DNA of 24,604 nt from IMG/VR virus record IMGVR_UViG_3300026097_000101, positions 1-24,604 of that record; one strand, 5' to 3'. Both the position numbers and the translations under genes were made by a program. The notes below the pieces were generated by a model. That model saw nothing but the letters and a program-made list of their open reading frames with translations. It did not search any database and was not told the DNA's origin. The stretch comes from a virus. This document shows, piece after piece, positions 282 through 23,884 of this stretch; position 1 is the stretch's first letter, and every line of letters starts with the position of its first letter.

Positions 282-315
282 GAACAGATTAGCATAATAT
301 ATATTGATAATAAAA
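282..315 (+). promoter_or_regulatory. Candidate phage late promoter, copy A
   Basis: GAACA (282-286), 15 nt, then TATTGATAATAAAA (302-315), 24 nt before the ATG at 326. The same two blocks at the same 15-nt spacing recur at 7209, 12128, 15752 and 18221, with a weaker copy at 15066, each in a gene leader. It differs from the Bacteroidota housekeeping promoter (TTTG ... TAnnTTTG). Promoter function is inferred from recurrence, spacing and position. An AGAAGGA ribosome-binding-like stretch follows before the start codon. Confidence 0.65.
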
Positions 316-325
316 TAGAAGGAAA

Positions 326-946
326 ATGATAGAATTGAATTTAGAGATTGATGGAAAGGCCAAGAGCTATAACATTCCAGCAGGATGGGACGAGGTAACA
401 CTTGGGCAAGCTGCAGATATGAATGATTTAAAGGATGATGATTCAACGGTGATCGTCCAGGTTGTTAAGTTGCTTAAGATATTGGCACCAGATATTAACG
501 AGGATGATATTATGATGATGTCTCCAGAGCAATTTACTCAAGTTACAGAAGCACTTCAGTTTGTTTCTGATGAAGTAGAAGGAGAGCTTGTAGAATACGT
601 TGAGATTGAAGGTGAGAAGTATTACCTCAAGAAGGACTTTGAGAAGCTTACGATGGGTGAGATCATTTCAATTGATTCGATAATGAAGCAAACAAGCAAC
701 GATATTACCAAGGCACTTCCAAAGGTGATGTGCATCTTCCTTAGAAAGAAGAATGATGATGGAGAATTGGAAAGCTTTAGAAATAGTTTCATGGAACGTG
801 AGGAGGCTTTCAGGAGCATTATCATAACGGATGTATATAAGTTGTTCGCTTTTTTTTTAGATGGAGAGGATTTATCGCAAAACAGTACGCAGGAATCTTC
901 CCCAAGAAAAAAGAGTCCAAAAAGCGAGATAGGTTCGAAAAGCTAA
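326..946 (+). CDS. Tail assembly chaperone, short (unshifted) form, gpG-like
   Basis: 206 residues, mostly helical and acidic (for example DDDSTVIV, INEDDIMMM), ending in a basic serine-rich tail. It lies early in the tail module. What identifies it is the arrangement: a T9 run near its 3' end and a second, overlapping open frame in the -1 register that ends just before the next gene. This is the architecture of lambda gpG/gpGT and of tail assembly chaperones generally, which coat the tape measure during tail assembly and are absent from the mature virion. The sequence itself does not resemble a family I can name with certainty. The start at 326 has an AAGGA-type ribosome-binding site 5 nt upstream. 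Confidence 0.75.
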   Translation: MIELNLEIDGKAKSYNIPAGWDEVTLGQAADMNDLKDDDSTVIVQVVKLLKILAPDINEDDIMMMSPEQFTQVTEALQFVSDEVEGELVEYVEIEGEKYYLKKDFEKLTMGEIISIDSIMKQTSNDITKALPKVMCIFLRKKNDDGELESFRNSFMEREEAFRSIIITDVYKLFAFFLDGEDLSQNSTQESSPRKKSPKSEIGSKS

Positions 947-1137
947 ACGGCCCATCAGAAATCTCAGATGATTTCAAAGTGTTTGGTTTGATTCAAACAT
1001 TTATTGATAGGCTGAATATGACGGAGCAACAAGTGTACGAAAAGAACTATATAAGCTGCTTGAACTGGTTATCATATTGGTACCAGGAGCAGAAGGTTCA
1101 AGAAGCAAAACAGAATAGTAAAAGTAAAGTAGTATAA
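326..1137 (+). CDS. Tail assembly chaperone, frameshifted form (gpGT-like), -1 shift at 853-859
   Basis: Predicted fusion: codons 326-859 are read in the first frame (178 residues), then ribosomes slip back one base on T TTT TTA and continue from 859 to the stop at 1135-1137, giving about 270 residues. The extension (RWRGFIAKQYAGIF..., later VFGLIQTFIDRLN and SCLNWLSYWYQEQ) is clearly protein-like: hydrophobic helices, no stop for 92 codons and no good start of its own before a late internal ATG at about 1018. It ends 2 nt before the ATG of the next gene. In lambda the equivalent T domain recruits the tape measure and tube protein. The shift is inferred, not measured. Confidence 0.75.
853..859 (+). 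promoter_or_regulatory. Programmed -1 ribosomal frameshift site
   Basis: A run of nine T (850-858) followed by A gives the canonical heptamer T TTT TTA in the register of the 326 frame (codons TTT 854-856, TTA 857-859). Slipping back one base enters the open frame that ends at 1137. I did not find a convincing long stem-loop immediately downstream, so the stimulator, if any, is unresolved. Confidence 0.7.
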
Positions 1138-1139
1138 AA

Positions 1140-1616
1140 ATGGCAAACAGAATTGTAACATACAACGAGATAATAGATAAGATGAGGGACTTCGTTGCAG
1201 CACATCCGAACCTAAGGTTCTTTGGCTCAGGTCCAACATCAGAGATTGCTACATCAGAGGAAATGGATTTCCCATATATGTGGGCAACACACGAGCAAGA
1301 TTCTAATTTTATAATTTCAAACAAGAACATTACGCCTGAGCTGAACTTCACAATTATGTTCCTTGATAAGATCAACGATCAAGAGAATGTAGAGAACGCA
1401 GTAGGTGATGATTCAGATAATACACAGGATGTTCTATCAGATGCATTCCAACACATTCAAGATTTCCTTAATGAGGTGCTTGTAAACTGGGGACTAACTG
1501 GTATATCATTCTCAGAGGATTTGATTACAGCATTCCCAGTGTATGATGAAACAACTGATAAGGTATCAGGATGGGCCGTTAGAATAGCATTAAGAATGAA
1601 ATACTACAACTGCTAA
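1140..1616 (+). CDS. Tail terminator/tail completion-like protein
   Basis: 158 residues with an alternating helix/strand pattern: an N-terminal helix (VTYNEIIDKMRDFVAAHPNL), a conserved-looking FFGSGPTSEI loop, a central strand (FTIMFLDKI), a long helix (SDAFQHIQDFLNEVL) and a C-terminal strand ending YYNC. Size, fold pattern and its place directly after the assembly chaperone fit a tail terminator, which caps the tube and joins it to the head. Similar proteins are common beside gp10-like genes in Bacteroidota phages. The family is recalled from pattern, so the functional name is moderate confidence. The gap to the preceding stop is 2 nt and to the next start 3 nt, indicating one transcript. 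Confidence 0.5.
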   Translation: MANRIVTYNEIIDKMRDFVAAHPNLRFFGSGPTSEIATSEEMDFPYMWATHEQDSNFIISNKNITPELNFTIMFLDKINDQENVENAVGDDSDNTQDVLSDAFQHIQDFLNEVLVNWGLTGISFSEDLITAFPVYDETTDKVSGWAVRIALRMKYYNC

Positions 1617-1619
1617 GAG

Positions 1620-2078
1620 ATGAGCAAGAACGAACTTTTTGAAGATCAGAATTATATTGATTATGGCAGAGATTACATTAAGGTAATTGCCAAGCTTCTT
1701 ATGAAGGCAGGTAAAGATGCCTCTGGAAAGCTCATTAGGTCTTTATCAGATAACGTTCAGGATGATGCTTCAAAGGTTCAGCTTATAATCGAATCAGAGG
1801 ATTACTTCAAGTATGTAGATGAAGGTAGAAAGCCAGGCAGCTTTCCTCCTATTAGCGATATAGAGAAATGGACAAAGCTAAAAGGTATTCCACAAGCAGC
1901 AGCATTCCCTATCGCAAAGAGCATATACAAGTTTGGTATAAAGCCAACCAATATAATTGAGAAATCAATTAAACAATTTGAGCCACAACTGATACAAGAT
2001 ATTGAGGAGGATGTGACCTATAATGTAGAAGAGGATGTATTTAACAACATTGAAAAGAACTTTAAAGATATAAAATAA
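1620..2078 (+). CDS. HK97 gp10-like minor tail/head-tail joining protein
   Basis: 152 residues. The central segment YFKYVDEGRKPGSFPP followed by KWTKLKGI and AFPIAKSIYKFGIKP matches the general pattern of the HK97 gp10/tail-completion family, in which an aromatic, a G-R/K-P stretch and Pro-Pro precede a helix and a FGIxPTN motif. The N- and C-terminal parts are helical and charged. Members act at the head-tail interface or tail terminator complex. The stop overlaps the start of the next gene (TAATG), implying translational coupling. Family assignment is good; the exact role in this phage is inferred. Confidence 0.6.
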   Translation: MSKNELFEDQNYIDYGRDYIKVIAKLLMKAGKDASGKLIRSLSDNVQDDASKVQLIIESEDYFKYVDEGRKPGSFPPISDIEKWTKLKGIPQAAAFPIAKSIYKFGIKPTNIIEKSIKQFEPQLIQDIEEDVTYNVEEDVFNNIEKNFKDIK

Positions 2079-4225
2079 TGAGCTACTCAGCAATAACTCA
2101 ACCACATACTTACGTGAATGGATATTCATTCATACCTCTTAGAATTGAGGATACAACAGTTGGCAGCGTAAACAGCTACCAATACATCGTTAACATTCTC
2201 TACAAAGAGAGAACCTTCAGCACAACTTCAACGGTTAGCTATGAGGGTAATGTATTCACAGAGGTAACATTCACAGAAGATCACCCTTTCAATAGAGGTG
2301 ACATTCTATTCGTATCAGATTCAACTGGAACATACACAAACTACTACACAGTAATGAGCGTTGTAGATTCAAGCAAGGTCATTATAGATTTAGAAGTAGG
2401 CCAGGCAATATCAGGTACACTTACAGCATCGAACGTTCTTAAATACAAGGTGGCTCCAAATCCAGATGGAGAGATTAAGCTTGATCTTTCAAACACAATA
2501 AAGGATTTCGTTTCACAGGACCTTGAAGATTCAAATGATATATACTTAGCTCCTAATACATACTTTGATTATAACCTTAAATGTGGCCACGAGGGTACAG
2601 CTCTATTTGATTTTGAAGATAACAGGTTTGAATCAGGTAATGTTGGGTTTGTTAACTCTACATTAACAGCAACTACTCAGGTTGATTTTGAGATTGGTGA
2701 TCAGATAATCATTCAACAAGATTTATATTCTTGGGATTATGATGATAATTATTTCTCTTCAGGTAATGTAGGATTCACAGGTTCTACGTCTCACATATTT
2801 GAATCAGGTGATACAGTAACAATCACAGGGCAGATAACCAATCCGTCTTATAATGGGGTTACTACAATCACATCTGTAGATACAAACTCAATAGTAACAG
2901 ATAAGCCTTGGGGTAGCAATACACCAGTAGAGCCAGGTACAATATATGGTGTGCCAGTTCCAGAGTACAATACTACAGCAACCATTACTAACATCTACTA
3001 CTCAGCAGGTACAGGTGTTGTTATTGTAACTGATGTAGGATTCCAAACTTCAACTCCAGCAATCGGAGGTACAATAAAGCATGCTGATGGAAAGATCATA
3101 ACAGATTATAACGAGCTTAATATAACAGGGCTTACAGCATACAACTCGTATGTGAACCAACTTAACTACTCTATTGATGAGTTTGATAAGTATGTATGCC
3201 AGGACAGAGCTTCAAGTGAAAACAACATATCAACTATTTTTGGAAACACAAAAAGATATAGAATTGAACCTTCAACAAAAAGCTGGTTGCTTGCTCACAC
3301 TTCTGGTGGCATGTGGGAACCAAGGCTAACATTCTATGATGCATCAGGAACATTCCTATCACAGTATAAGCTTGATTACCCATACACATATGGACCAACA
3401 GTAAACATTAACACATACATTAACAACGGTGGTGATGTTAGATTAGATGGTACATCAGCTCATGGTGCATCCGTTGGTGATTTTGTTGAGATCGTAGGTG
3501 GGCCATACGCAGGCATAGCTGAAGTAACTCAAGTTAACTCTTCAACTGATGTTACAGTGGATGTTACATTTACAACAGGTTTACCAGTAGGGGGCGAAAC
3601 ATTTAAAGTGATTGAGAATCACTCTAGCAAGTATGATTACTATTTCCCAGTTGGAGTAGATCAAATAGATAATGCATCAAACAAAACGCTTCTATCAGGG
3701 TCATCAATCTCTTCAATCAAGAGCCAGATAGAATACTATGATGTGAACCTTGAATATGAAGGTGCAGTAAATACCAACACAATAACATTTGAGATTAATG
3801 ATGATTGCTCAAGATACGAATTATACCACATTATGTGGAAAGATGCTAGAGGTTCTTGGATAAGCTACCCATTCAAATATGTGTCTCAGGATACAATTGA
3901 TGTAGATAGAAAGAACTACTACCAAACAGAAGGTACTTGGAGCAGCAACTCATTCGGCTTTGATTCATTTGGAAGGGGTGAGAAAACATTCTTTGCAAGA
4001 TCAAGGAAGAAGGTGAGAGTTACATCAGGATGGATTGAGCAGTTTGAGAATGATTTACTTGTTGATATGATGAAATCTGCAGCTGTTTATGTCCAGCTTC
4101 CAACAGGAGAGGTTATAGCTTGTACATTAGAAGATGATGATATTACGCCTGGTAAAAACATAAACGAACAGATATGGAACTACACATTTACTGTAGTTTA
4201 TTCTAACGATGAAATAAGATTATAA
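2078..4225 (+). CDS. Large beta-rich distal tail protein
   Basis: 715 residues, rich in Thr, Ser, Tyr, Asn and beta-prone segments, without signal peptide or membrane segment. A small beta domain with the core pattern GD.v.i....Y.G...V.sV appears to recur around residues 57-107, 225-279 and 452-505, with a partial copy near 181-215; two of these begin with the near-identical ESGNVGF / SSGNVGF. The C-terminal part (about 600-715) looks different and may be the tail-binding domain: it contains RSRKKVRVTSGWIEQFEND and ends in a beta hairpin. Position between the gp10-like protein and the 992-residue hub-like protein suggests a distal-tail or baseplate component. No nuclease or peptidase motif was seen. 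Starts on TAATG. Confidence 0.55.
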   Translation: MSYSAITQPHTYVNGYSFIPLRIEDTTVGSVNSYQYIVNILYKERTFSTTSTVSYEGNVFTEVTFTEDHPFNRGDILFVSDSTGTYTNYYTVMSVVDSSKVIIDLEVGQAISGTLTASNVLKYKVAPNPDGEIKLDLSNTIKDFVSQDLEDSNDIYLAPNTYFDYNLKCGHEGTALFDFEDNRFESGNVGFVNSTLTATTQVDFEIGDQIIIQQDLYSWDYDDNYFSSGNVGFTGSTSHIFESGDTVTITGQITNPSYNGVTTITSVDTNSIVTDKPWGSNTPVEPGTIYGVPVPEYNTTATITNIYYSAGTGVVIVTDVGFQTSTPAIGGTIKHADGKIITDYNELNITGLTAYNSYVNQLNYSIDEFDKYVCQDRASSENNISTIFGNTKRYRIEPSTKSWLLAHTSGGMWEPRLTFYDASGTFLSQYKLDYPYTYGPTVNINTYINNGGDVRLDGTSAHGASVGDFVEIVGGPYAGIAEVTQVNSSTDVTVDVTFTTGLPVGGETFKVIENHSSKYDYYFPVGVDQIDNASNKTLLSGSSISSIKSQIEYYDVNLEYEGAVNTNTITFEINDDCSRYELYHIMWKDARGSWISYPFKYVSQDTIDVDRKNYYQTEGTWSSNSFGFDSFGRGEKTFFARSRKKVRVTSGWIEQFENDLLVDMMKSAAVYVQLPTGEVIACTLEDDDITPGKNINEQIWNYTFTVVYSNDEIRL

Positions 4226-4226
4226 G

Positions 4227-7205
4227 ATGAATCAGTATAGTATAATTGCATACGAAAACGGAGGTGTTGAACTTGATACGTTTGGGGATATAGATGTGTC
4301 CCTTAACTATCAGATTGATGATATATTTGATGTATCAAAAAGGAACACGTCTTTCTCTAAAACAATAAAGCTCCCTGGAACTTCAAAGAACAATAAATTC
4401 TTTAAAGGGATATTCGATGTTAATATTGATGGTGTATACTTCAACCCACTTAAGAGAATCCCAGTTGTTGTAAGGATTGGTACCAACGATGTACTTCGTG
4501 GTTACCTGCAGCTCATGGATATTAAAACTGTAAACAAGCAGGTTGAATATGAGATTTCAATTGCAGGCTCTTTAAGAAACATATTCTCAGAGATTGATGA
4601 TTACGCTTTGGCAGCATTAGATTTATCAGAATATAATCACAATAGAACCAAAACAAACATACAGAACTCTTGGGAGTACAAGGTGCAGAAGAATGGCTCT
4701 ACTGTAGATAAGGGAGGCCCAGGTGATGGATATGTTTACCCATACATCATCAACGGTAATTCAACTGGTATATGGAACAACATCTATAGTTATGATATGT
4801 TCCCAGCTCCATACGTTAAAACTGTATTGGATAAGATATTTGAATTTGCAGGATTTACCTATACTTCAGAATTTCTAAACTCAGAATACTTCAAGAAACT
4901 AATCCTTCCATTCAACGGTGATAAGCTTGAGCTATCTGATGAGCAGGTAGAAGAGCGTACAGTAAGGGTTGGTGTAACAGGGCCAAAAGTATCAATAACA
5001 CCCTGGAGGCAGAATGGTACATCTTGGTATTACAACTATATGAATGGTTATGGCATCGGTCTTACAAGAGAATCTGGTACCGTAAACGATTCTAGTGGTG
5101 AACTTACATTTACAGATGATTTGGACCAGTGGAATGAATTCAGTTACTTCACTTGCCAGAACACAGGTTACTATGATATAAACTTCGTAGGAAAGGCATT
5201 TATAGGCTATCTACGCTCTAATGGTAATGATATAAGGTGGAATGGTAATTCGCTTGAATATATCTACGCTATGGAGCTTGTGAAGCCAGGTGTTGGAGTT
5301 ATAACTCTTGCATCTTCAAATGGTACAAAGTTGATCACACCATCAGATGGTTTAGAGCACCCATCACCTTGGTATGATACAGCTAATCCTCTTCCTATGA
5401 ATATGAATGCAACAAACGTTGCTATGGAGCCAGGAGATTACATTAGAATAGTTGCAGGTCATAGGCACCCAGGTATTGTAAACTGGCAAGGTATTGATGG
5501 GCAGATGTCATCAAAGCTATTCCTTGCAAGGCAATTGGATGGTGATTATACAAAGCTTACGGTAACCCCTTCAAGTAATCAACTTATGGGTAATGAGCTT
5601 GTTGATATGAATCAGATACTTGATAGGAAACTTAAGATGAAGGATTTCTTAATGGATATTATGAAGATGTTCAACCTTGTGCTTCAAGATAACCCAAACA
5701 AATCTAACGATGTATTGATCGAGCCAAGGGATGATTTCTTTAAGTCTCGAAGAAGGGTGCTCAACTGGGATGAGGAAAAGAAGCTGGATAATGATTCAGA
5801 AGTAATCCTAACTCCCATGAGTGACTTAGATTTCAAAAACTATAACTATACCTATACTAATGATGGTGATTACTTTAATGAGGAGTATACTGATGAAACA
5901 GGAAGGATATATGGTGATTATGAGATCGCAGTAGATAATGATTTCTCTGATGAGGATAATGAGCTGAAGATTAAGTTTGCACCAACGCCTAACTCATCAC
6001 AGTGGATTGATTCAAGGTGTGCACCATTCTTTGCTGATTATGATGATGAAGAATTAAATCCAAAGAAGGTAAAGCCAAGGATTCTATTCTACGGTGGATT
6101 GGTTGATATGTATCAAGGCTCTGTATTGTATGTTAGAGATTATGAAAACGAACCAACATCAACTGCACTTAACCTAACATCATATCCATATTGTGGAATG
6201 TGGGACCACCCTAATACACCACAGTATGATTTAGCGTTTGGTAGAACAGATAAGATATATTGGGATTCATTTAATGTTGCGCCAAATAACAACTTATTCC
6301 AGCAGTTCCATAAGCAAACGATTAGAAACATAATCAACCCAAATGCCAAGCTACTTGAGTGTACAGTTCATTTAACACCAAGGGATATAGCTGAGTTTGA
6401 TTTTAGAGATATTGTATTCTTGCTGGGTAGTTACTGGAGGGTGAATAAGATAATTGATTACAACCCAGTTAGAACAGATAGGCTTACAAAGGTGGAGCTT
6501 TATAAGATTGTTGATATTGATATTATTGATAAATATACAGTTGAAGTACCAACCTCTAACAAAGGATGTCCTAATGATTTGGTCTCTAAGAAGAGCCCAA
6601 AGCTTGGTGTTATAATCGTATCAGCTTCAGGAAAAGAAGTAACTGATGATTGTTGTAAGCAATACGGTGGTACACTTGTAGATGGAATCTGTACTGTAAG
6701 GCCATTCAAGCCAGGTCCAATCGGAGTTGAATATGCTGATGCTGTAATAAGCAAAAGGCCATATGATACAGGTGGTATTGATGTGGTTCCAATTGCTGAT
6801 ACAAAAGGTCCTATTGCTTTGAGCAAGGATTTAACTTCAAGGAATACGCTTGGGGTTAAGAGTTATGGTAGTAGTAACTACATTCCAGAAGGAGCTTTAC
6901 CAGGAGCTATCTTTGGTAACAATTCAACAATTGTTGATGGTGTAGAGAATGCTTATGTGTTTGGTGATAACATATCGGCAAGAGAATCTGGAAGCTTATA
7001 CTTTGGTAATATACAGATCACTGAGAATGGCGTGATCAAGCAAACAGGCATCAACATAATTGATGGAGGTGAGGATGAGGTCTTTAATGTAGGCAAAACA
7101 AACCCTATTGATATAATTGATGGTGGTGAGGATTCGGTAAGAAATCCTGGAGGAGATTCAAAGGCAAGGCCAATAATTGATGGTAGCCAGAACCCTGGAG
7201 TTTAA
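4227..7205 (+). CDS. Tail hub/baseplate-like protein with repetitive C-terminus
   Basis: 992 residues. The N-terminal ~110 residues (IDVSLNYQIDDIFDVSKRN, then SFSKTIKLPGTSKNN) look like the tail-attached domain at the start of many Bacteroidota-phage hub proteins. The middle is beta-rich and aromatic (YxWNN, DDFFKSRRRVLNWDEEKK around residue 510), consistent with a Tal/Dit-type hub. The end is modular: a four-Cys patch (GCPND, then DDCCKQYGGTLVDGIC) near residues 776-823, a short beta-solenoid-like stretch (IFGNNSTIVDGVENAYVFG), then three IIDG units at the extreme C-terminus. It begins 1 nt after the preceding stop and is probably the platform on which the following fibre genes assemble. Confidence 0.55.
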   Translation: MNQYSIIAYENGGVELDTFGDIDVSLNYQIDDIFDVSKRNTSFSKTIKLPGTSKNNKFFKGIFDVNIDGVYFNPLKRIPVVVRIGTNDVLRGYLQLMDIKTVNKQVEYEISIAGSLRNIFSEIDDYALAALDLSEYNHNRTKTNIQNSWEYKVQKNGSTVDKGGPGDGYVYPYIINGNSTGIWNNIYSYDMFPAPYVKTVLDKIFEFAGFTYTSEFLNSEYFKKLILPFNGDKLELSDEQVEERTVRVGVTGPKVSITPWRQNGTSWYYNYMNGYGIGLTRESGTVNDSSGELTFTDDLDQWNEFSYFTCQNTGYYDINFVGKAFIGYLRSNGNDIRWNGNSLEYIYAMELVKPGVGVITLASSNGTKLITPSDGLEHPSPWYDTANPLPMNMNATNVAMEPGDYIRIVAGHRHPGIVNWQGIDGQMSSKLFLARQLDGDYTKLTVTPSSNQLMGNELVDMNQILDRKLKMKDFLMDIMKMFNLVLQDNPNKSNDVLIEPRDDFFKSRRRVLNWDEEKKLDNDSEVILTPMSDLDFKNYNYTYTNDGDYFNEEYTDETGRIYGDYEIAVDNDFSDEDNELKIKFAPTPNSSQWIDSRCAPFFADYDDEELNPKKVKPRILFYGGLVDMYQGSVLYVRDYENEPTSTALNLTSYPYCGMWDHPNTPQYDLAFGRTDKIYWDSFNVAPNNNLFQQFHKQTIRNIINPNAKLLECTVHLTPRDIAEFDFRDIVFLLGSYWRVNKIIDYNPVRTDRLTKVELYKIVDIDIIDKYTVEVPTSNKGCPNDLVSKKSPKLGVIIVSASGKEVTDDCCKQYGGTLVDGICTVRPFKPGPIGVEYADAVISKRPYDTGGIDVVPIADTKGPIALSKDLTSRNTLGVKSYGSSNYIPEGALPGAIFGNNSTIVDGVENAYVFGDNISARESGSLYFGNIQITENGVIKQTGINIIDGGEDEVFNVGKTNPIDIIDGGEDSVRNPGGDSKARPIIDGSQNPGV

Positions 7206-7208
7206 TCC

Positions 7209-7243
7209 GAACAAAATGAAGTTTAACATATTGATAAATAAAA
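7209..7243 (+). promoter_or_regulatory. Candidate phage late promoter, copy B
   Basis: GAACA (7209-7213), 15 nt, TATTGATAAATAAAA (7229-7243), 19 nt before the ATG at 7248. Same layout as the element at 282. It would start the fibre/adhesin transcript. Confidence 0.65.
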
Positions 7244-7247
7244 GAAC

Positions 7248-8600
7248 ATGGCAATAGCTACAGAATATAGTAGATTAGTTTGGAAGCGTTCAACTGAAAC
7301 AGGAGTTGAGCCAACCATTCCAACTGCAACTACAATAGATAACACTTGGCTGGATACGGACCTACTTATAGGAGAAGGTTTTTTAAATACAGCAGATGAT
7401 AAATTTTGGTTCAGAACAGATAATGGATTGGTTGAGCTTTCACTATCTGGAATATCTTCAGATAACTATTACACAGATGCTGCATATCTTTCTGGAAATA
7501 CAATCGTATTTGATAGGACTGATACAGAGGAAGCATATGCTGTTGATTTAAGCCCAGTTCTTTCTGGTTTAACTGGTGATTATCTTCCGCTTGATATTAC
7601 TGAAAACACTGTAATTAATTATTCAGGTTTTTCTGTAACATTATCTGGTGACCCAGGTGGAGCTTCAGTAGGGCATGCATGGGAATATGCAGCAGATTAC
7701 TCTTCAAACTATACTGATAGATCACTTGTAGATAAAGCATATGTAGATGCCAACGGTGGAGGTACTTTTACAGGAGGTTCAATTACAGGTGATGTAACAT
7801 TTGAAACTAAAGCATTATTTAAAGATGATGTTGAGATGCAGGAACTTTCAGCAATAACTTTATCTGTTCTTAATTCAGGCGCAACATCAAGAGATTACTT
7901 TGATTACTCTTCAAACACAATTGAAACTGATGTAACAAACTCTGCAATTGTAGCAGGGAGTGGTAATACAATACCTTCTGGGCTTACTAATGTATTTGTA
8001 TCGGGAGTTGATCTAACGGCAGATACAGATGACACAGCATACTTCAGCAATATAAGAGTAGATTCAAACATTCAAGGTGCTACTTCAGGGCTAATGACCT
8101 CTCCTGCATCTGATACAAATGGTGTAATCATAAGCTCAAACGATTGTAGAATAAACCCTTCTGTAGTGAACTCTGTAGTTATGGCATCTACTGGAAGAAC
8201 TGCATCTGCTAACAATACATTATACCTTGAGAATTTAGATGTTAATGGTAGCTCTGTAGGCATACCATATGACTATTCTTTTGCAGTAACTGATGAAACT
8301 ACTGCGATAACATCTGGAAGCTCTCTAGTGGCTTTATATGCGCCTAGAGACTTCGCAATAGAAAAGGTTAAAGTATCTCTATCAACATCTGGTTCATCAA
8401 CAACAACTGTGGATGTGAATGTAGGAGGTTCAAGCATTCTCACTTCGCCAATTGATCTTGCATCAGGAGTGTTTGTTAATTCAACCACATCACTTTCAAC
8501 GAGTGATATACATGAGGATGATAGAATCACTGTGGATATAGATGCGGCAGGCTCAGAAGGAAAAGGATTAAAAGTTTACTTAATAGGAAAAAATAGATAA
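7248..8600 (+). CDS. Tail fibre protein with beta-solenoid-like repeats and shared C-terminal domain
   Basis: 450 residues, Ser/Thr/Gly-rich. The N-terminus (residues 1-75) contains TIDNTWLDTDLLIGEGFLN, a likely tail-anchoring part. The middle (about 195-340) has loosely repeated segments of the form N.I..g..n.fv.G...(Y)f.Ni, as in left-handed beta-roll fibres. The last ~105 residues, from FAVTDETTAIT to VDIDAAGSEGKGLKVYLIG, are paralogous to the C-terminus of the 379-residue fibre at 10985. This domain type is common at the ends of phage fibres and is probably a trimeric surface- or sugar-binding tip. First gene of a fibre cluster, with its own promoter-like element. Confidence 0.65.
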   Translation: MAIATEYSRLVWKRSTETGVEPTIPTATTIDNTWLDTDLLIGEGFLNTADDKFWFRTDNGLVELSLSGISSDNYYTDAAYLSGNTIVFDRTDTEEAYAVDLSPVLSGLTGDYLPLDITENTVINYSGFSVTLSGDPGGASVGHAWEYAADYSSNYTDRSLVDKAYVDANGGGTFTGGSITGDVTFETKALFKDDVEMQELSAITLSVLNSGATSRDYFDYSSNTIETDVTNSAIVAGSGNTIPSGLTNVFVSGVDLTADTDDTAYFSNIRVDSNIQGATSGLMTSPASDTNGVIISSNDCRINPSVVNSVVMASTGRTASANNTLYLENLDVNGSSVGIPYDYSFAVTDETTAITSGSSLVALYAPRDFAIEKVKVSLSTSGSSTTTVDVNVGGSSILTSPIDLASGVFVNSTTSLSTSDIHEDDRITVDIDAAGSEGKGLKVYLIGKNR

Positions 8601-8603
8601 AAC

Positions 8604-9308: not shown

Positions 9309-9318
9309 AAATAAAGAT

Positions 9319-9516: not shown

Positions 9517-9519
9517 GAA

Positions 9520-10981: not shown

Positions 10982-10984
10982 GAA

Positions 10985-12124
10985 ATGGCAATAACAAGAA
11001 TAAAATTAAGAGGAGATACAGCAGCCAACTGGACGAGTGCTAATCCAGTACTTGCCGAAAGAGAAGTAGGCCTTGAAATAGATTCCCAAAAAATTAAAGT
11101 AGGTGATGGCTCACTTGCCTGGAATTCCCTGGACTATTATATTCCAGATACAATTTCATATACATCTTTATCAGCTACAACTTTTTACTCAGGCTCAACA
11201 AATCTTGAAACTGTAATAAACGACTTAGCTGGTAGCGATATAACAAGAATACAAGGAGGTACAAACATATCTACTGGTGGCACAGCTAATCAACCAATAG
11301 TGAACTTAAATGCTGATATTGATGTGACATCTCTTTCAGCTGATACGATTTATTCTGGGTCAACAAATCTTGAAACTGTAATAAATGACCTAGCTGGTAC
11401 CGATATAACAAGAGTACAAGGAGGTACAAACATATCTACTGGTGGCACAGCTAATGAACCAATAGTTAACTTAAATGCTGATATTGATGTGACATCTCTT
11501 TCAGCAAACACAATCTATTCAGGTTCAACAGATGTATCAACCCTGTTCAAAAACTGGACATTACAGATAGATTTTGATGCTCACACAGGAGATACTTCAA
11601 ACCCTCATAATGTAACAGCAGCTCAAATAGGAGCTCCTACACTCTCAGGAATGACTGCTCTTCTTGATACGAAGGCTGATCTATCAGGAGATACATTTAC
11701 AGGGACTATTGATGCTCCAACTATTTTGAGTGGAGGTACTGATCTGTATAGTATATTTACTACTTCAGATGATATACCTACAACATATCCATATGATTTG
11801 ATTGTAGCAGCAAGTGACGAAACTACAGCAATAACAACAGGTGTAGCTAAAGCAACTTTTATTTCACCTGCTGATTTTACACTTACAGCTGTGACTGCAA
11901 GTTTAACTACAACAGGTTCAACAGATTCTGTAGTTGATGTTAATTACAACGGAAGCTCTGTATTTGCATCTCCGATCACTATTTCTTCTGGCGATTACTA
12001 CCAGGAAGAATCCACTTCAACTTCAGCTATAAGCAAGTACAATACGTTCACTGTTGATATTGATACAGCAGGTACAGATGCAACTGGCCTTAAGATAATG
12101 CTTCTTGGATATAGAGATATTTAA
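10985..12124 (+). CDS. Tail fibre protein, Mtd/hyaluronidase-type N-terminus with tandem repeats
   Basis: 379 residues. Residues 1-56 (IKLRGDTAANWTSANPVLAEREVG, then KIKVGDGSLAWNSLDYY) match the fibre N-terminal domain known from Bordetella phage Mtd and many fibres with the pattern RRGT..W...NPvL..GE.G...D...iKiGDG...WnsL.Y. Two nearly identical 55-residue repeats follow, then a partial third, a short DAHTGDTSNPHNVTAAQIGA trimerisation-like motif, and a C-terminal domain (about 272-379) shared with the fibre at 7248. No reverse transcriptase is visible, so there is no sign of a diversity-generating system despite the Mtd-like start. Probable receptor-binding fibre. Confidence 0.7.
   Translation: MAITRIKLRGDTAANWTSANPVLAEREVGLEIDSQKIKVGDGSLAWNSLDYYIPDTISYTSLSATTFYSGSTNLETVINDLAGSDITRIQGGTNISTGGTANQPIVNLNADIDVTSLSADTIYSGSTNLETVINDLAGTDITRVQGGTNISTGGTANEPIVNLNADIDVTSLSANTIYSGSTDVSTLFKNWTLQIDFDAHTGDTSNPHNVTAAQIGAPTLSGMTALLDTKADLSGDTFTGTIDAPTILSGGTDLYSIFTTSDDIPTTYPYDLIVAASDETTAITTGVAKATFISPADFTLTAVTASLTTTGSTDSVVDVNYNGSSVFASPITISSGDYYQEESTSTSAISKYNTFTVDIDTAGTDATGLKIMLLGYRDI
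11162..11545 (+). repeat. 165-bp in-frame tandem repeat within a fibre gene
   Basis: Unit 1 is 11162-11326 and unit 2 is 11327-11491. Both encode the 55-residue block beginning TSLSA and containing GSTNLETVINDLAG and RxQGGTNISTGGTAN. A partial third unit covers 11492 to about 11545. The two full units differ at only a few bases over long stretches (for example AGGAGGTACAAACATATCT is identical), implying recent duplication. Confidence 0.9.
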
Positions 12125-12127
12125 GCA

Positions 12128-12161
12128 GAACGATTTTGATCTTTGAATATATATAAAAAAA
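12128..12161 (+). promoter_or_regulatory. Candidate phage late promoter, copy D
   Basis: GAACG (12128-12132), 15 nt, TATATATAAAAAAA (12148-12161), 18 nt before the tape measure ATG. Same spacing as the other copies, but with TATATATAA in place of TATTGATAA. Confidence 0.6.
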
Positions 12162-12165
12162 CAGC

Positions 12166-15087
12166 ATGGCTAAATCAGCACAAATTAACATATCAATAAA
12201 TACTCAGAATGCAATAAAAAGCATGGCTGATCTTAACAATGAAATTGGAGATTCTGTAGTAACTATACAGGATTTAAGAATGACGGTTGATGCTTTAACT
12301 CAAGAACTTGAATCTACCGAGTATGGTACTGATAGATGGAATGAGTTGAAAAGAGCTGTTATTGATGCGAACACAGAGCTTAAAAACTATGAGTTATCAG
12401 TTGAATCTTTGGACCACGAGCAAGTAGCTACTGAGATTAAATCTGTAGTTGGTGGTCTTACAGATATGGCAGGAGGTATGGCTCTTGTTGGAGCATCTGG
12501 CGAGAGCATGGAGAAGATCGTTCAATTGTTTGCACAAGTAGAAGGTGTTTCAAAGATTGCAACTGGAGCTATGGAAGGATATACTTCTATGATGAAGTTA
12601 TCTGGAACTATTACAAAAACTCTAACAGGATGGCAAACTGCGCTTGCTGCAGCTCAATTAAAAGGTGGTATAACATCTAAGGCTGCTGCTGTTGGTATGC
12701 GTATCTTAAACGCTGCTATGAATGCTAACCCTGTATTCTTGATCATTACAGGTATTACTGCTTTGATTGGTGGATTAGCTTGGTTTGTAACTTCAACTAA
12801 TGAAGCAGCAGAAGCTCAGGGAGAACTAAACTCTGAGATGGAAGCTCAGAATAAAATAATGCAATCCACAAGGAAGCTTAGGAATGCTATGCTTACTGAG
12901 CAAACAAGTGCTAATGATGTTAAGATAAAGCAAGAACAGGCAACGTTAAATATATTAAAGCTTGAGCTTAAAAACTTGCAGAAGAAAATTGATTTAAACC
13001 AGGAGCTAACAGAAGATGAGCAGATGAGGTTTGAAAGGTTACCTGGATATATTCAAGCTGCAGAAGATTCAATAGAAAGGTTAACCTTCAAAAACTTTAA
13101 CAAAAGAGTTAATGCCGCAAGAGCAACTGTTGAAGAGAATTCAGGTGCTATGGAGGATAAGTTTGAATCCTTAAGGCTAGCAATCCAGGCTACAAGAAAT
13201 GAAGATTGGGGTGATGAGGATATAAACTACACCGCAATGATCGGAAGAATTACAGCTGCTGAAGGAGCTTTTAAAAAGCTTCAAGAAAGAATGGAGACTG
13301 GTGATGTAACAACTGCGTTTTATCAGAGAGAAGTTAGAATGCTAACTGAAGATATTGCAAATCTTAATGCGGATATTGGAAAGCTTGATGGTACATTTGG
13401 TAATGATGGTACTGAGGAGTGGAAGAAAGCAATTGATGCTGTTGGAGAATTAGATAAAGGATTAGCGGATGTAGTTCAAAGTGCTGTTGATTATAACAAA
13501 GTTCAAAGAGAAGGTTTTGATTTAGATAAGGAGTTTGGAATGTTTGCTGATAACTTGGATAAGCAACAAACAAAACAAGAGGAGCTTGAGGCTCTCGAAA
13601 AATCTATTGCAGAAAACAGAAAAAGAAGATTAAAGCAAAGGCAAGATAAGCTTAAGCAGATATTAGAATTATTAGGTAGAGAAGAAAATTCTACAAAAGA
13701 ATTGGCAAGAACAAAAGCAGAACTTGCTAATGATGAAATAGAACTCATCAACATTTCTTATGGAGAGGAAAGAGAAAAGATAATTAATTCTGCTATTGCT
13801 CGTGAGGAGGCTTTGCTTCAGCAAAAGTTTATAGATGGAAAGCTTAATGAGAAAGAGCTTAAAGAAGCACTCATTGATCTTAACGAGAACTATGAAGATT
13901 ATCTACTTGATTCTGAGAAAGAGCTATTAGAAGCAAAAGAGGAATTGCGTAAACAAGAGATTCAATCAATTCAAGAAAGATACAACCAAGAGAAAAAGAT
14001 TAGCAAAGAATCAAGGGATGTTATAATTACAAGCAGAAGATTATCTACTCTACAGTTCGAGAAGGAAATGGAATTAATGACAGCTAGAACCGAAAAGGAG
14101 AAGCTTGCCATTAGAGAGAAGTATTTAGTATTTGAGATTCAAGCGATCAAAGATAACCTTGTTGAGCAGAAAGAACTATTAAAGGTTCAGCTTGAAGCTC
14201 AACTTGCTAATGAGAAATTAAGTCTTGAGGAGAAGAAAAGATTAAGAGAGCAATATCTATCAGATGTAAAAGCTCTTGAGCAAGAGGCAGCAATTGCAAT
14301 CCAATCGCTTACCAACCAAACCACTCAAGGAGTTGAGCACATGAATGGCAAAGTTGGACAGTGGGCTGAAGGTATACTTGAGTTTTATGATAAAATAGCA
14401 TCAACCGTTCAAACTACTTTGAATACAATTCAAATGGCTTGGGACGTTGCTGCTGAGAATCAAACTGCGAAGCTTGAGCAAGAATATGCAAATCAAGTAC
14501 AAGCAGCTCAGGATGCTTATGGTGAGCGTTTAATATCTGAACAAGAGTTTGCCAACCAGGTTCAAGCTATTGAAGAGGAGAAGGCTGATAAGGAGCGTGC
14601 TTTAAGAATGAAATCATTCAAGCAGCAGAAGGCTATGAATATTGCAAATGCTGTAATTAATGGAGCACAGGCCGTGCTTCAAGCACTTGCTAGTATGCCG
14701 CCTCCACTTTCTTATGTACTTGCTGCAGTTAACGCTGCACTTGCGGGTGTACAAGTTGGTATCATTTCTTCTCAGAAGTTTACAGGTAACCGTGGTGGTA
14801 AAGTGCCAGGACAACCTTCAACTGTGGATTCAGTAGATGCACTGCTTGCGCCAGGTGAAATGGTGATCAACGCACAATCATCAAGTATGTTCCCAGAACT
14901 TCTATCTGATATTAATCAGGCAGGTGGTGGTATACCATTAGCACCAGAAAGCCCAAGCACTCAGAAGAACTCAGGCAACAATACATTTAAAGAGCAAGGG
15001 CCACTACAAGCTTATGTAGTTGAATCACAGCTAAGCCAAACAAGCAAGAGAGTAAGAAGAATGCAGAACGCTGCTACATTCGGATAA
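12166..15087 (+). CDS. Tail tape measure protein
   Basis: 973 residues, the second-longest gene here. The N-terminal ~180 residues are helical with Ala-rich stretches. A hydrophobic segment at about residues 190-211 (NPVFLIITGITALIGGLAWF) is the membrane-type helix usual in tape measures. Residues ~430-700 are long, highly charged coiled coil, and a second hydrophobic helix lies near 830-870. Residues ~875-905 carry the hallmark ending GGKVPGQPSTVD...LLAPGEMVINAQ. Tape measures set tail length and are ejected with the DNA; at about 1.5 angstrom per residue this one predicts a tail near 145 nm. Unusually, it lies downstream of the fibre cluster rather than directly after the assembly chaperone. 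Confidence 0.93.
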   Translation: MAKSAQINISINTQNAIKSMADLNNEIGDSVVTIQDLRMTVDALTQELESTEYGTDRWNELKRAVIDANTELKNYELSVESLDHEQVATEIKSVVGGLTDMAGGMALVGASGESMEKIVQLFAQVEGVSKIATGAMEGYTSMMKLSGTITKTLTGWQTALAAAQLKGGITSKAAAVGMRILNAAMNANPVFLIITGITALIGGLAWFVTSTNEAAEAQGELNSEMEAQNKIMQSTRKLRNAMLTEQTSANDVKIKQEQATLNILKLELKNLQKKIDLNQELTEDEQMRFERLPGYIQAAEDSIERLTFKNFNKRVNAARATVEENSGAMEDKFESLRLAIQATRNEDWGDEDINYTAMIGRITAAEGAFKKLQERMETGDVTTAFYQREVRMLTEDIANLNADIGKLDGTFGNDGTEEWKKAIDAVGELDKGLADVVQSAVDYNKVQREGFDLDKEFGMFADNLDKQQTKQEELEALEKSIAENRKRRLKQRQDKLKQILELLGREENSTKELARTKAELANDEIELINISYGEEREKIINSAIAREEALLQQKFIDGKLNEKELKEALIDLNENYEDYLLDSEKELLEAKEELRKQEIQSIQERYNQEKKISKESRDVIITSRRLSTLQFEKEMELMTARTEKEKLAIREKYLVFEIQAIKDNLVEQKELLKVQLEAQLANEKLSLEEKKRLREQYLSDVKALEQEAAIAIQSLTNQTTQGVEHMNGKVGQWAEGILEFYDKIASTVQTTLNTIQMAWDVAAENQTAKLEQEYANQVQAAQDAYGERLISEQEFANQVQAIEEEKADKERALRMKSFKQQKAMNIANAVINGAQAVLQALASMPPPLSYVLAAVNAALAGVQVGIISSQKFTGNRGGKVPGQPSTVDSVDALLAPGEMVINAQSSSMFPELLSDINQAGGGIPLAPESPSTQKNSGNNTFKEQGPLQAYVVESQLSQTSKRVRRMQNAATFG

Positions 15088-15099
15088 ACAATAATAAAT
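15066..15099 (+). promoter_or_regulatory. Weak candidate late promoter, copy H
   Basis: GAACG (15066-15070), 15 nt, then AAACAATAATAAAT (15086-15099). The second block keeps only ATAATAAA of the consensus, in the same register, 22 nt before the ATG of the prohead protease. The first block lies inside the end of the tape measure gene. Chance occurrence is possible. Confidence 0.35.
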
Positions 15100-15107
15100 A
15101 AATAGAT

Positions 15108-15767
15108 ATGGAAAATTACATACCAATATTTGAAATAGTGATTGATGAGGAGGCTGAGGATTCAGGTTTCATCAGGAACTCTTTCGTAGAGAACCCAGCT
15201 GTTGAGGTTGAGAGGTTTGCATTCTCAAAGCAGGATAAAATGATCTTTTCACAAAATGAGAAGGAGCAGATATTTACATCTGTTTCAATTTTAGCTGATA
15301 CACCAATCCTTAGAGAAGGACCAAATGGAGAACCATTTTACGTGGTCTTTACTAAAGACGTGATCAGAAAGATAAGAAACAAGCTGGTTAAAGATGGGAA
15401 GGCAAATGATATTTCGCTCTATCACGATGAGAACGAAGTACAAGATGGAATCTATATGGTAGAGAACTACATCACAAACAAAGATAGAGTTGAATCTAAA
15501 TTGTTTGATGTTCCAGAAGGTTCACTGATCACTTCATACTGGGTAGAGGACCCAGAGCACTACGAGAGATTGCTTGAGGACGATAAGTTCAAAGGATTCT
15601 CAATAGAGATAAATGCGAAGATTTCACAGATGTTCTCTAACACTTTTAAGGAAATGTATTCAGAGAGCGAGAAGATAGCGAGAATCAAAGATATAGCCTT
15701 CTCAGAGGACATGAGTGACGAAGATAAAGAAAAAAAGATTAGAAAACTATTGAACAGTTTTGAATAA
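15108..15767 (+). CDS. Prohead protease, XkdF/Peptidase S78_2-like
   Basis: 219 residues. The pattern of the XkdF-type serine protease is present: a conserved N-terminus with FVENPAVEVERFAFS (residues 26-40), a His in LYHDEN (His106) and the late segment DVPEGSLITSYWVEDPEHYERL followed by KGFSIEIN, with Ser165 the likely nucleophile. Family members mature the prohead by cleaving scaffold and sometimes capsid protein. The neighbours fit: a scaffold-like gene follows and then the major capsid protein. The charged C-terminal tail (DMSDEDKEKKIRKLL) may itself be scaffold-like. Catalytic residues are assigned by pattern. Confidence 0.75.
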   Translation: MENYIPIFEIVIDEEAEDSGFIRNSFVENPAVEVERFAFSKQDKMIFSQNEKEQIFTSVSILADTPILREGPNGEPFYVVFTKDVIRKIRNKLVKDGKANDISLYHDENEVQDGIYMVENYITNKDRVESKLFDVPEGSLITSYWVEDPEHYERLLEDDKFKGFSIEINAKISQMFSNTFKEMYSESEKIARIKDIAFSEDMSDEDKEKKIRKLLNSFE

Positions 15768-15786
15768 TAAATATATATAAAAAAAG
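15752..15786 (+). promoter_or_regulatory. Candidate phage late promoter, copy E
   Basis: GAACA (15752-15756, inside the last codons of the protease gene), 15 nt, TATATATAAAAAAAG (15772-15786), 21 nt before the scaffold ATG at 15793. It would drive the scaffold and major capsid genes up to the terminator at 17562. Confidence 0.65.
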
Positions 15787-15792
15787 AACAAC

Positions 15793-16566
15793 ATGAGTTT
15801 AATCAAAAAGATAAAGGCTGTATTTAACGAAGCCGAAGAAAATAAAGAGGAAACATCTATGGAGTTTGTAGATGTTAAAACAAAGGATGGACGTATTATG
15901 CGTGTTCCTGATTTAGCAGTTGAAGCTCCAGTAGTAGAGATCACAGAAGATGGCGAGGTAGCTGTTGAAGATGGTGACTACGAATTAGAAGATGGGACTG
16001 TACTCAAAGTTGTTGGTGGATTAATTGCAGAGATTATGCCAGCAGCAGAAGAAGATGAGGATGGTGAAGTTGTTACTGAGGAAATGAATAAAACTGAAAA
16101 GTTCTATGATGTATTCCTTAAGAACGGTGGAAAGGCTCACGTAATCAACACAGAGGAAGGTAAGATGAACGAAGGAGATAAGATGGTTATCGAAGGCGAA
16201 GAAGCCGCTCCAGGTGAATACGAACTTAACTCAGGCGAAACATTAACAGTAGGAGAAGAAGGAGTTATTGATTCAATCAAAACTGCTGATGAAACTGTAG
16301 AAGATGACGCTAAGAATGCTGCTGAAGAAGCAGTGGAAGAAGCTGATGAAGAAGTTCAAGGAATTGTAAATAACTTGAAGGACTTGGTTAAGCAGATCAA
16401 AGATTTGAAATCTCAGTTCGAAAAGATTGAGAACGAAAATAAAGAGCTCAAGGAACAATTCAGCAAGTTTGCTGATGCTCCATCTGATGAGCCAACGAAT
16501 ACAAAGGTGGACTTCAAAGCTGCAAGCAAAGAAGAGAAGCTTAAGTTTTTCAGAAAAAGAGGATAA
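15793..16566 (+). CDS. Head scaffolding-like protein
   Basis: 257 residues, very acidic in the middle and coiled coil at the C-terminus (about 190-225, NNLKDLVKQIKDLKSQFEKI), ending in a basic stretch (KLKFFRKRG). Acidic plus coiled-coil composition, the location between prohead protease and major capsid protein, and a basic tail that could contact the capsid shell all fit an internal scaffold. It contains two related small beta modules: EDGDYELEDGTVLKVVGG near residues 57-75 and APGEYELNSGETLTVGEEG near 137-156. It would be assembled inside the prohead and removed by the protease. Sequence family not recognised beyond this. Confidence 0.7.
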   Translation: MSLIKKIKAVFNEAEENKEETSMEFVDVKTKDGRIMRVPDLAVEAPVVEITEDGEVAVEDGDYELEDGTVLKVVGGLIAEIMPAAEEDEDGEVVTEEMNKTEKFYDVFLKNGGKAHVINTEEGKMNEGDKMVIEGEEAAPGEYELNSGETLTVGEEGVIDSIKTADETVEDDAKNAAEEAVEEADEEVQGIVNNLKDLVKQIKDLKSQFEKIENENKELKEQFSKFADAPSDEPTNTKVDFKAASKEEKLKFFRKRG

Positions 16567-16604
16567 GAAATAACAAGAATATTAACAAATAAAATTTAAA
16601 ACAA

Positions 16605-17537
16605 ATGAGTTTAAATGTAAGCGGATTAGCAGCATATACTGATGAGCAGAAAATGCCTCTAATCAAGAAATCAATCTTGGAAGGACGTACTATTCAATAT
16701 ATTACAGTTCAGCCAGATATTAAATCAACAGCTTCAATAAACATTATGGATTCTACACTTTCCCTTCAAGCGGGTTCTTGTGGATTCACTGATGCAGGAA
16801 GCACAAGTTTAACACAAAGAGATTTGAGCGTATGCCCACTTAAGGTAAACGAATCAATCTGTTTGGATACACTTGAGTCATACTACACTCAAGCGATGAT
16901 GCAACCAGGTAGCTACAACGAGGACATTCCTTTCGAGCAGCTTTACGCTGAAGATAAGGCAGAGAAAATTGCAGCAGCTATCGAGGATAACGTTTGGAAA
17001 GGTAACTCTCCAGATTTCACAGGACAAACTGCTTGTGATGGTTTCCTTAACGTGTTTGAAAACACAGCAGCTTCAGGTTCAACTGTAGCAGGTAACTCTT
17101 CAAGTGCAACTGCAATTACTGCAGCTAACGTAATTGGTCTTGTAGATGATGTAGCAGCAGCTATTCCTACAGATATAATTGATTCTGATGATCTTGTATT
17201 GTTCATGGGATATGATACATACAGATTGTGGGCAACTGCACTTAGAAATGCAAACCTTTTCCACTACGATGGAGCAGAGAATCAAGGAGATAACTTCTCT
17301 CAAATGATTCCAGGAACTAACATCAGAGTAATCGCTGTTAGAGGACTTAACGGAACTGATAGAATGTTTGCTTCAAGAGCATCTAACTTCTACTTCGGAA
17401 CTGATTTGCTTAACGATTGGGAGAACTTCTCTATATTCTACTCTATGGATAACCAAGAGGTAAGATTTGTAGCTAAGTTCAAGATCGGTGTAAACGTAGC
17501 ATTCCCTGGGTTTGTCGTTGCATTCAAATTAGCATAA
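16605..17537 (+). CDS. Major capsid protein
   Basis: 310 residues, a normal length for an HK97-fold capsid protein. The N-terminal arm (residues 1-45) is followed by a likely E-loop region and a long helix (FEQLYAEDKAEKIAAAIEDNVWKG, residues ~105-128). Further on, LVLFMGYDTYRLW, then IRVIAVRGLNGTDRMFASRASNFYFGTDL is the typical A-domain/P-domain ending where such proteins carry the 'name the virion coordinate frame' strand order. It follows protease and scaffold, and its own strong terminator is consistent with high expression. Leader AATATTAACAAA is shared with the next gene. The shell forms around the scaffold and is filled by the terminase through the portal. Confidence 0.85.
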   Translation: MSLNVSGLAAYTDEQKMPLIKKSILEGRTIQYITVQPDIKSTASINIMDSTLSLQAGSCGFTDAGSTSLTQRDLSVCPLKVNESICLDTLESYYTQAMMQPGSYNEDIPFEQLYAEDKAEKIAAAIEDNVWKGNSPDFTGQTACDGFLNVFENTAASGSTVAGNSSSATAITAANVIGLVDDVAAAIPTDIIDSDDLVLFMGYDTYRLWATALRNANLFHYDGAENQGDNFSQMIPGTNIRVIAVRGLNGTDRMFASRASNFYFGTDLLNDWENFSIFYSMDNQEVRFVAKFKIGVNVAFPGFVVAFKLA

Positions 17538-17561
17538 TCGTAAGATTGAAATAAGAAACTT

Positions 17562-17596
17562 AAAAGGCTGCTGCAATTGGTAGCGGCCTTTTTTTT
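17562..17596 (+). terminator. Intrinsic terminator after the major capsid gene
   Basis: 11-bp stem AAAAGGCTGCT (17562-17572) with AGCGGCCTTTT (17582-17592), one T-G wobble, 9-nt loop, T8 run at 17589-17596. Confidence 0.9.
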
Positions 17597-17629
17597 AAAA
17601 GAAATATTAACAAAATTAAAACATAAGAA

Positions 17630-18145
17630 ATGAGTTGTATAATTGATAACGGATATACTTTAGGTTGTGCTTCAATCGGTGGTGTTGAGAGAGTTTGGAT
17701 AGGAACATATGATGCTGATGCAACATATACTATGGATTCTGGTAACACTATTACTGCGGCAACATCAGCTTCAACAGTATATTTATTCGAGCAAGATATG
17801 GAGTACGCTGGTCTTAACCAGAACGGAGTATTCACAAGAGAAAACGGAACGGTTCACTATGAATCAATCCTTTCAGTAAAATTCACTAACCTAGATGCTG
17901 ATCTTAGAAATACAGTATTAGCACTTGGTAAAGCACCAATCGTTGCGGTTGTAAAATCTAACGAAGGTGATTACTACATAGCTGGAGTTGAATCTGCTGG
18001 TAGAGCTACAACTGGAGCTGCGTCTCTAGGAGTTGCAATGAGTGATATGAACGGAGCGAACTTAGAGTTCACGTTTAAATCTAAAAACGGAATCTATCTA
18101 ATGGATGGTTCTTTGATTGGAACAGATATTCCTTTGGGAGCATAA
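17630..18145 (+). CDS. Major tail tube-like structural protein
   Basis: 171 residues, predominantly beta, with MSCIIDNGYTLGCASIGGVE at the start. A central segment (FEQDMEYAGLNQNGVFTREN, residues 51-70) precedes a long strand-helix unit (VHYESILSVKFTNLDADLRNTVLAL), and the C-terminal part (ANLEFTFKSKNGIYLMD) resembles tail-tube folds of Bacteroidota phages. It sits alone between two intrinsic terminators, immediately after the capsid gene, as expected for a very abundant virion protein. An alternative is a head decoration protein. No late-promoter element precedes it, so it is probably read through from the capsid transcript. Confidence 0.6.
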   Translation: MSCIIDNGYTLGCASIGGVERVWIGTYDADATYTMDSGNTITAATSASTVYLFEQDMEYAGLNQNGVFTRENGTVHYESILSVKFTNLDADLRNTVLALGKAPIVAVVKSNEGDYYIAGVESAGRATTGAASLGVAMSDMNGANLEFTFKSKNGIYLMDGSLIGTDIPLGA

Positions 18146-18165
18146 GAGTTTCCCTTCTAATAATT

Positions 18166-18208
18166 AATGGGCTATGGCTGGCAATTCTGCTGCTTAGCCC
18201 ATTTTTTT
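18166..18208 (+). terminator. Intrinsic terminator after the tail-tube-like gene
   Basis: 9-bp perfect stem AATGGGCTA (18166-18174) with TAGCCCATT (18195-18203), 20-nt loop, T7 run at 18202-18208. Confidence 0.88.
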
Positions 18209-18220
18209 ATGCTATAACTT

Positions 18221-18254
18221 GAACAAAAAAGAGTTTTCTATATTGATAATAAAA
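18221..18254 (+). promoter_or_regulatory. Candidate phage late promoter, copy C
   Basis: GAACA (18221-18225), 15 nt, TATTGATAATAAAA (18241-18254), 18 nt before the ATG at 18259 and 13 nt after the preceding terminator's T run. The second block is identical to copy A. Placement directly after a terminator and before a new gene run is strong contextual support for a promoter. Confidence 0.75.
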
Positions 18255-23852: not shown

Positions 23853-23884
23853 CAAATCTACAGCAAAATAATAATTCGTGCAAA
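23853..23884 (-). promoter_or_regulatory. Host-type Bacteroidota promoter
   Basis: On the minus strand TTTG (23884-23881), 20 nt, TAGATTTG (23860-23853), matching the Bacteroidota -33 TTTG / -7 TAnnTTTG consensus. Transcription would start about 15 nt before the ATG at 23832, which decides the start of that gene. Confidence 0.75.

Follow-up and report, generated by a model that had tools for sequence, protein, structure and literature searches.

A fixed-spacing, two-block element upstream of late operons in a tailed-phage family, probably a promoter read by a phage sigma-like factor

The element in the window and its gene context

The 24,604 bases of DNA analysed here, referred to as the window, make up a viral contig fragment (IMG/VR record IMGVR_UViG_3300026097_000101) that is incomplete and whose left end begins inside a terminase gene. 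Its plus strand carries virion genes with tail, tape-measure, protease-like, scaffold-like and portal matches, and just 3.7% of positions 1-22522 is non-coding. Within this compact region a two-block element, GAACR-N15-TATNNATAA, has five exact matches, all on the plus strand and each directly upstream of a late gene (Table 1). No match was obtained in 100 dinucleotide-preserving shuffles of the window, and there is no further exact match on either window strand. With the spacing left free between 8 and 23 nt, a single extra window match appears beyond the five.

Table 1. Features of the window. For the elements, the last column gives the fraction of records in which the family of the following gene carries the element (aa, amino acids; G016, a relative).
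Feature	Position	Strand	Sequence or basis	Next gene	Records with element
Putative late promoter element 1	282..310	+	exact match; GAACA 282-286, N15, TATTGATAA 302-310	ATG 326, 206-aa gene after terminase	11/19
Putative late promoter element 2	7209..7237	+	exact match; GAACA-N15-TATTGATAA	ATG 7248, 450-aa tail-region gene	17/22 (merged tail cluster)
Putative late promoter element 3	12128..12156	+	exact match; GAACG-N15-TATATATAA	ATG 12166, 973-aa tape-measure-like gene	6/23
Putative late promoter element 4	15752..15780	+	exact match; GAACA-N15-TATATATAA	ATG 15793, 257-aa head-region gene	16/23
Putative late promoter element 5	18221..18249	+	exact match; GAACA-N15-TATTGATAA	ATG 18259 (79-aa gene), then gene at ~18476	16/23 (gene at ~18476)
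Terminator-like hairpin (GGGCTA...TAGCCC) and T-run	18167..18208 (approximate)	+	read from sequence, just upstream of element 5
Bacteroidota housekeeping-type promoter TTTG-N20-TAGATTTG	23853..23884	-	sequence reading; contrast class	minus-strand genes
Terminase large subunit, C-terminal end	2..277	+	phmmer to G016 terminase, E 8e-35; open reading frame truncated
Conserved 310-aa capsid-like gene	16605-17537	+	position and conservation

A first-pass annotation of this DNA had described five sites with a gap of exactly 15 nt, a distance of 18-24 nt from the start of the second block to the ATG, and one leader directly after a terminator. A pattern search recovered all five sites at the positions it had given, the distance holds in all five leaders, and element 5 adjoins the hairpin and T-run. 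A weaker copy proposed at 15066 does not stand: it has two mismatches and lies mostly within the open reading frame at 12166-15087, and about eight matches with up to two mismatches are expected by chance. The remark that the element does not fit the Bacteroidota housekeeping consensus holds as well, as none of the five has the TAnnTTTG -7 box that, with an upstream TTTG-type box, marks a sigma-A promoter. On the minus strand, whose genes lie at the right end of the window, this consensus is present by reading at the position that had been named for it, and its TAnnTTTG box was flagged by script. Element 4 overlaps the final 16 bases of the preceding open reading frame.

The gene assignments around the elements rest on profile matches and on position. 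The terminase of G016, to which the window terminase was matched, hits Pfam Terminase_3 and the PHROG terminase large subunit, and the 973-aa gene has a PHROG tape measure match. From its position and conservation, the product of the 310-aa gene is probably the major capsid protein; a structure model with a pLDDT (predicted local distance difference test) of 33 was of no use for its identity.

The element in relatives and its lineage variants

The capsid-like protein served as bait and led to 80 viral contigs; the candidate stretches that encoded a relative numbered more than 500. A search with the portal protein recovered no viral relatives, and two more baits gave one relative each, one of which (L158) contributes two more leaders with the family-wide form described below. 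The family-wide count was made over 79 records of relatives (1.08 Mb). The exact GAACR form, for which the first-pass annotation had proposed to scan the relatives, gave single matches only in them and was rejected as a family-wide motif. When all viral contigs were scanned at the DNA level for GAACA-N15-TATTGATAATAAA, 24 contained it, mostly with a single match and at most two, and these matches were judged to be mostly chance.

Reading the leaders of the relatives, we recognised a sister element, AAACA-N15-TATTTA. It occurs 128 times at a spacing of 15 nt, against ~9 in shuffles and 0-19 at each other spacing between 8 and 23, an enrichment of ~14-fold at one spacing alone. A lack of enrichment, which the first-pass annotation had named as refuting its idea, is not what is seen: in this form the element is enriched, and it sits at orthologous late-gene positions. 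Among 80 sites counted in the fuller relatives, leaving out the window, 74 fall between genes and share the strand of the capsid-like gene; the distance from the end of the site to an ATG is 3-32 nt in nearly all cases, with a median of ~13. Versions of the element are carried by many related aquatic phages; it is shared, fixed in spacing and placed upstream of late operons above chance, as in phage sigma-dependent late promoters.

When late leaders were aligned by AAACA alone, ATATTTA emerged at +19 to +25 with 78-90% per base; when aligned by TATTTA alone, AAACA emerged, with the C of the first box at 76% against a background of 10%. As each box recovers the other independently, the anchor test is not circular. 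The 15 spacer positions hold almost zero information, which is expected of two boxes contacted by RNA polymerase.

The positions of the element are orthologous across records, while its second box drifts. In the best four families, those beside four of the window sites, 58-77% of records carry the element, and the lowest frequency is that of the tape-measure family (Table 1). In the closest relative, L010, whose capsid-like protein is 72% identical, the counterpart of the element 5 leader contains GAACA-N15-TATTTATTA, and GAACR/TATTGATAA of the window is one lineage variant of the family element. Divergent relatives retain the first box together with a single favoured spacing, but each has a second box of its own: TGTTTTATAA in G023 (six sites, zero in shuffles), TATATNATAA in G013 and TATAT in G014. 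The variant of G027 is AGACA-N16-TATTTA, and CTTATA in G029 is less well supported. A first box and a single preferred spacing that are kept, with a second box differing by lineage, would be expected if a phage-borne reader co-evolves with the element.

The element was found upstream of neither the capsid-like gene (0/24) nor the gene that follows it (0/24), the terminase (0/18) or the sigma-like gene described below (0/20). In the window the capsid-like and the following gene have different A-rich leaders (AATATTAACAAA...TTAAAACA) at 16575-16604 and 17600-17629 without the late element, and the counterpart leaders of relatives read AATAAACAAA-TTAAAAA. A terminator-like hairpin lies between the two genes in the window (17560-17630) and in relatives; as the second gene has no element of its own, read-through of this hairpin may set the ratio of their expression. 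In G006 (L092/L093), repeats of CCTACACACTATAAT in both orientations are found upstream of 1157, 14604/14785, 21096 and 25283, partly adjoining the putative late promoters; they are possibly an operator or a recombination site.

Further features of the window were noted away from the element. A homing-endonuclease-like open reading frame (phrog_314) at 20300-20908 sits between the portal and the DUF6712 gene, which are contiguous and without it in G006 and G016. The segment 22595-22810 (+) is highly structured and RNA-like (z -4.4 versus shuffles), with a strong terminator at its end, and opens with a tRNA-like acceptor stem and T-arm (GGGGCUG...GUUCAAAUC...CAGCUCC); window-wide ARAGORN and Rfam scans gave nothing for it, and no homolog was found among the fetched relatives. 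The sole match in a genome collection, a 3.2-kb contig in a metagenome-assembled genome of Cycloclasticus, was judged a probable mis-binning, and this host was rejected.

A sigma-like gene as candidate reader

The first-pass annotation had suggested a dedicated late-promoter system, possibly read by a phage sigma factor or a modified host polymerase. The enrichment, the orthologous positions and a sigma-like gene in the long relatives speak for the former; a modified host polymerase is not needed. A scan for Sigma70_r2 gave matches in 12 of 33 records. Iterated profiles brought out a family of sigma-like proteins of 170-224 aa in 20 records, including every relative long enough to be informative (16/16 of at least 26 kb); none was found within the window. 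The gene is on the terminase strand and, in 16 of the 18 records with the terminase in view, 0.9-4.3 kb upstream of it (downstream in the other two). Of the families present in all 16 long records, no other has best matches indicative of a role in transcription; the rest are mostly virion or packaging families, some without assigned function.

The protein weakly matches PF08281 (Sigma70_r4_2; best E 1.7e-4, 2/17 members), PF04542 (Sigma70_r2; E 0.036, 3/17) and the PHROG family 'RNA polymerase sigma factor' (E 1.5e-4). As it stays below the curated Pfam cut-offs for both domains, its hits in the Sigma70_r2 scan included, we call it ECF-like (extracytoplasmic function-like) and not an ECF member. 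An AlphaFold2 model (pLDDT 84.5) has two helical domains and a low-confidence linker at 85-96, in keeping with the ECF architecture, in which a flexible linker connects region 2 to region 4 and no other region is present. The Foldseek and VIA-align lists for this model consist mostly of sigma factors, with SigL of M. tuberculosis, AlgU and sigma-E of E. coli at the top among PDB entries, and region 4 of the model superimposes on that of sigma-E with a TM (template modelling) score of 0.7 at 2.2 Å. Support for a sigma-like nature of the protein is good but not conclusive.

A culturable case is offered by the Nonlabens phages P12024S/L, the only cultured phages that match the window portal well. 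In the distant P12024S (L156, NC_018271) the gene B617_gp33, annotated as 'Sigma-70 region 2', lies 0.85 kb upstream of the terminase and aligns with the sigma-like family colinearly and end to end (hhalign E 1.6e-4). Scored with the family boxes this phage looked negative; with its own second box, GTTAATATA in its predicted late promoters, it was positive. Its late leaders have AAACA-N17-GTTA(A/C)TA at five places, and one leader has a spacing of N16, all directly upstream of ATGs; hence, a culturable phage has the first box as well, combined with a different second box and spacing. On the opposite strand, a host-type TATATTTG-like box overlaps some of these putative late promoters (5379, 23929 and 2998), with divergent small open reading frames; this is a possible early/late switch.

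Taken together, we consider it likely that the element is a bipartite late-operon promoter shared by a large family of tailed Bacteroidota phages, and that its most probable reader is the phage ECF-like sigma on the host core polymerase. Block A (AAAC-A; GAAC-A/G in the window phage) would be the -35 box, contacted by region 4, and block B (TATTTATAA; TATTGATAA or TATATATAA in the window phage) the -10 box, contacted by region 2, with the two boxes held exactly 15 nt apart. The reader would be the sigma of ~170-224 aa, made of region 2 and region 4 only and riding the host core RNA polymerase; in the window phage its gene is expected just upstream of the terminase, past the left end of the window. 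Since the sigma-like gene has no element in the relatives, its expression would precede that of the late genes and depend on a host-type or early promoter. Transcription would start ~7 nt past the -10 hexamer, which would make the 5' leaders ~6-12 nt long in the window and nearly absent at those sites of relatives that lie 3-5 nt from the ATG. For the wider picture of a family-wide switch, with a highly diverged ECF-like sigma among the few genes common to all members, near-leaderless late mRNAs, a fixed AAAC-A -35 box and a -10 box rewritten per lineage, we see the chances as about even.

Several points weigh against this interpretation. The window fragment is without a sigma gene, although the gene would be out of view, because the window starts within the terminase and the gene usually lies upstream of it. 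Taken singly, the sequence matches that speak for a sigma fold are weak, the best Pfam match being that to region 4, the Foldseek E-values are 0.04 or worse, and the G016 member of the family is without a convincing sequence match. The exact GAACR/TATTGATAA variant was not found in close relatives, and a clear element was recognised at no site in G022 and at few in G002. Co-variation of motif and sigma is confounded by phylogeny, and G026 and G028 have divergent sigmas but keep TATTTA. Lastly, iterated profiles find a second, variable sigma-like gene in many relatives, so that there is more than one candidate reader.

This second gene is of a compact, canonical sigma-70 type in G011, G015, G016, G020 and G022 (as at L097 8992-9669 (-), which is G016 25992-26669), and ECF-like with a C-terminal extension in G006, G008-G010, G012, G017-G019 and G024. 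A second promoter-like class, TGACTTTT-C-AAA...GATATTTATTAGTATA, precedes small genes of the early region, close to the sigma genes, in several relatives (G016 25582(-) and 27637(+), G020 1054, G024 27763, G011 3136).

A late promoter with another reader, be it the second sigma-like protein, a host ECF sigma or a host sigma with a phage activator, is conceivable given these second genes and the several ECF sigmas of Flavobacteria (PMC9723704), but we regard it as unlikely. Two unrelated types of second sigma accompany an identical AAACA-N15-TATTTA, so the second sigma does not track the element, and in G026 and G028 the element is present while a second sigma was not detected. The lineage-specific changes of box B favour a phage-borne reader, and none of the six classes mapped in F. 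psychrophilum (TAnnTTTG variants, sigma-54, TAnnTTGY and an ECF class with a CGT box) equals the element (PMC9723704).

The position of the element very near start codons would also suit an RNA-level function in the late leaders, as a translation enhancer or processing signal, since Bacteroidota have no Shine-Dalgarno sites and A-rich sequence near the start codon promotes translation initiation in them (PMC6847099). The A-run before the ATG is probably a translational feature separate from the element, because leaders without the element carry it too. The capsid-like gene and its neighbour, which should need strong translation, have such A-rich leaders and lack the element, the 15-nt spacing is fixed around an uninformative spacer, and the element often stands directly 3' of a terminator-like hairpin. 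As the leaders moreover have no consistent or stable shared RNA fold and Rfam finds nothing in them, we hold a role in the RNA to be quite improbable. Least probable, to the point of being nearly negligible, is that the element is a host housekeeping promoter in variant form, or an artefact of base composition in AT-rich leaders. The DNA is AT-rich and the second block TATA-like, but enrichment at a single spacing over dinucleotide shuffles contradicts this reading, as does the C of box A that emerges with box B as sole anchor, and host-type TAnnTTTG boxes are present mostly on other genes.

Comparison with known systems

Little has been described of how late genes are switched on in phages of Bacteroidota, a phylum that is dominant in aquatic and gut habitats and has non-standard promoters. 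With the element, promoters can be annotated directly in many uncultured phages, and naturally diverged sigma/promoter pairs become comparable, with P12024S in Nonlabens as a testable cultured case. If the predicted starts are true, the leaders of late phage mRNAs would be unusually short for a phylum in which most mRNAs have leaders; in F. psychrophilum the median leader is 24 nt and 5.5% of mRNAs are leaderless (PMC9723704). An open-access full-text search, with most subscription journals outside it, returned no paper that describes a phage sigma together with a late promoter in Bacteroidota. The kind of promoter is known, while the present variant and clade appear to be new.

Phage sigma-type factors reprogram the host polymerase in T4 (gp55, late) and SPO1 (gp28 and gp33/gp34, middle/late). 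The putative system would resemble both in its phage-encoded sigma-type factor for late genes; T4 late promoters differ in that they have a lone -10 box of the TATAAATA type and depend on the sliding clamp. ECF-type promoters commonly carry an AAC-type -35 box. Bacteroidota sigma-A uses TAnnTTTG, and in one host ECF promoter class that has been described the -10 box is a CGT box (PMC9723704); neither has AAACA-N15-TATTTA, although the host polymerase is likely the same.

The middle/late promoters of phiEco32 are single-element (tAATGTAtA), without a -35 box, and are read by phi32_gp36 (PMC8948821). A phage sigma on the host core, as we propose here, and a lineage-specific promoter sequence would be common to both systems, but in the present element the -35-like box is conserved and its most constant part. 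The proposed promoter would work like the eight identified late promoters of phage 7-11, GTAAtg-16-aCTA, which are read by the phage sigma SaPh711_gp47 on the host core, with transcription starting 6-9 bp from the promoter element (PMC8948821). Both consensus sequences consist of two boxes at a fixed distance, placed ahead of late genes, and both systems, if our reading is right, use a phage sigma. Unlike in 7-11, a podophage of Enterobacteria, the present sigma is far diverged and the predicted leaders are very short, and the box sequences and the spacing differ.

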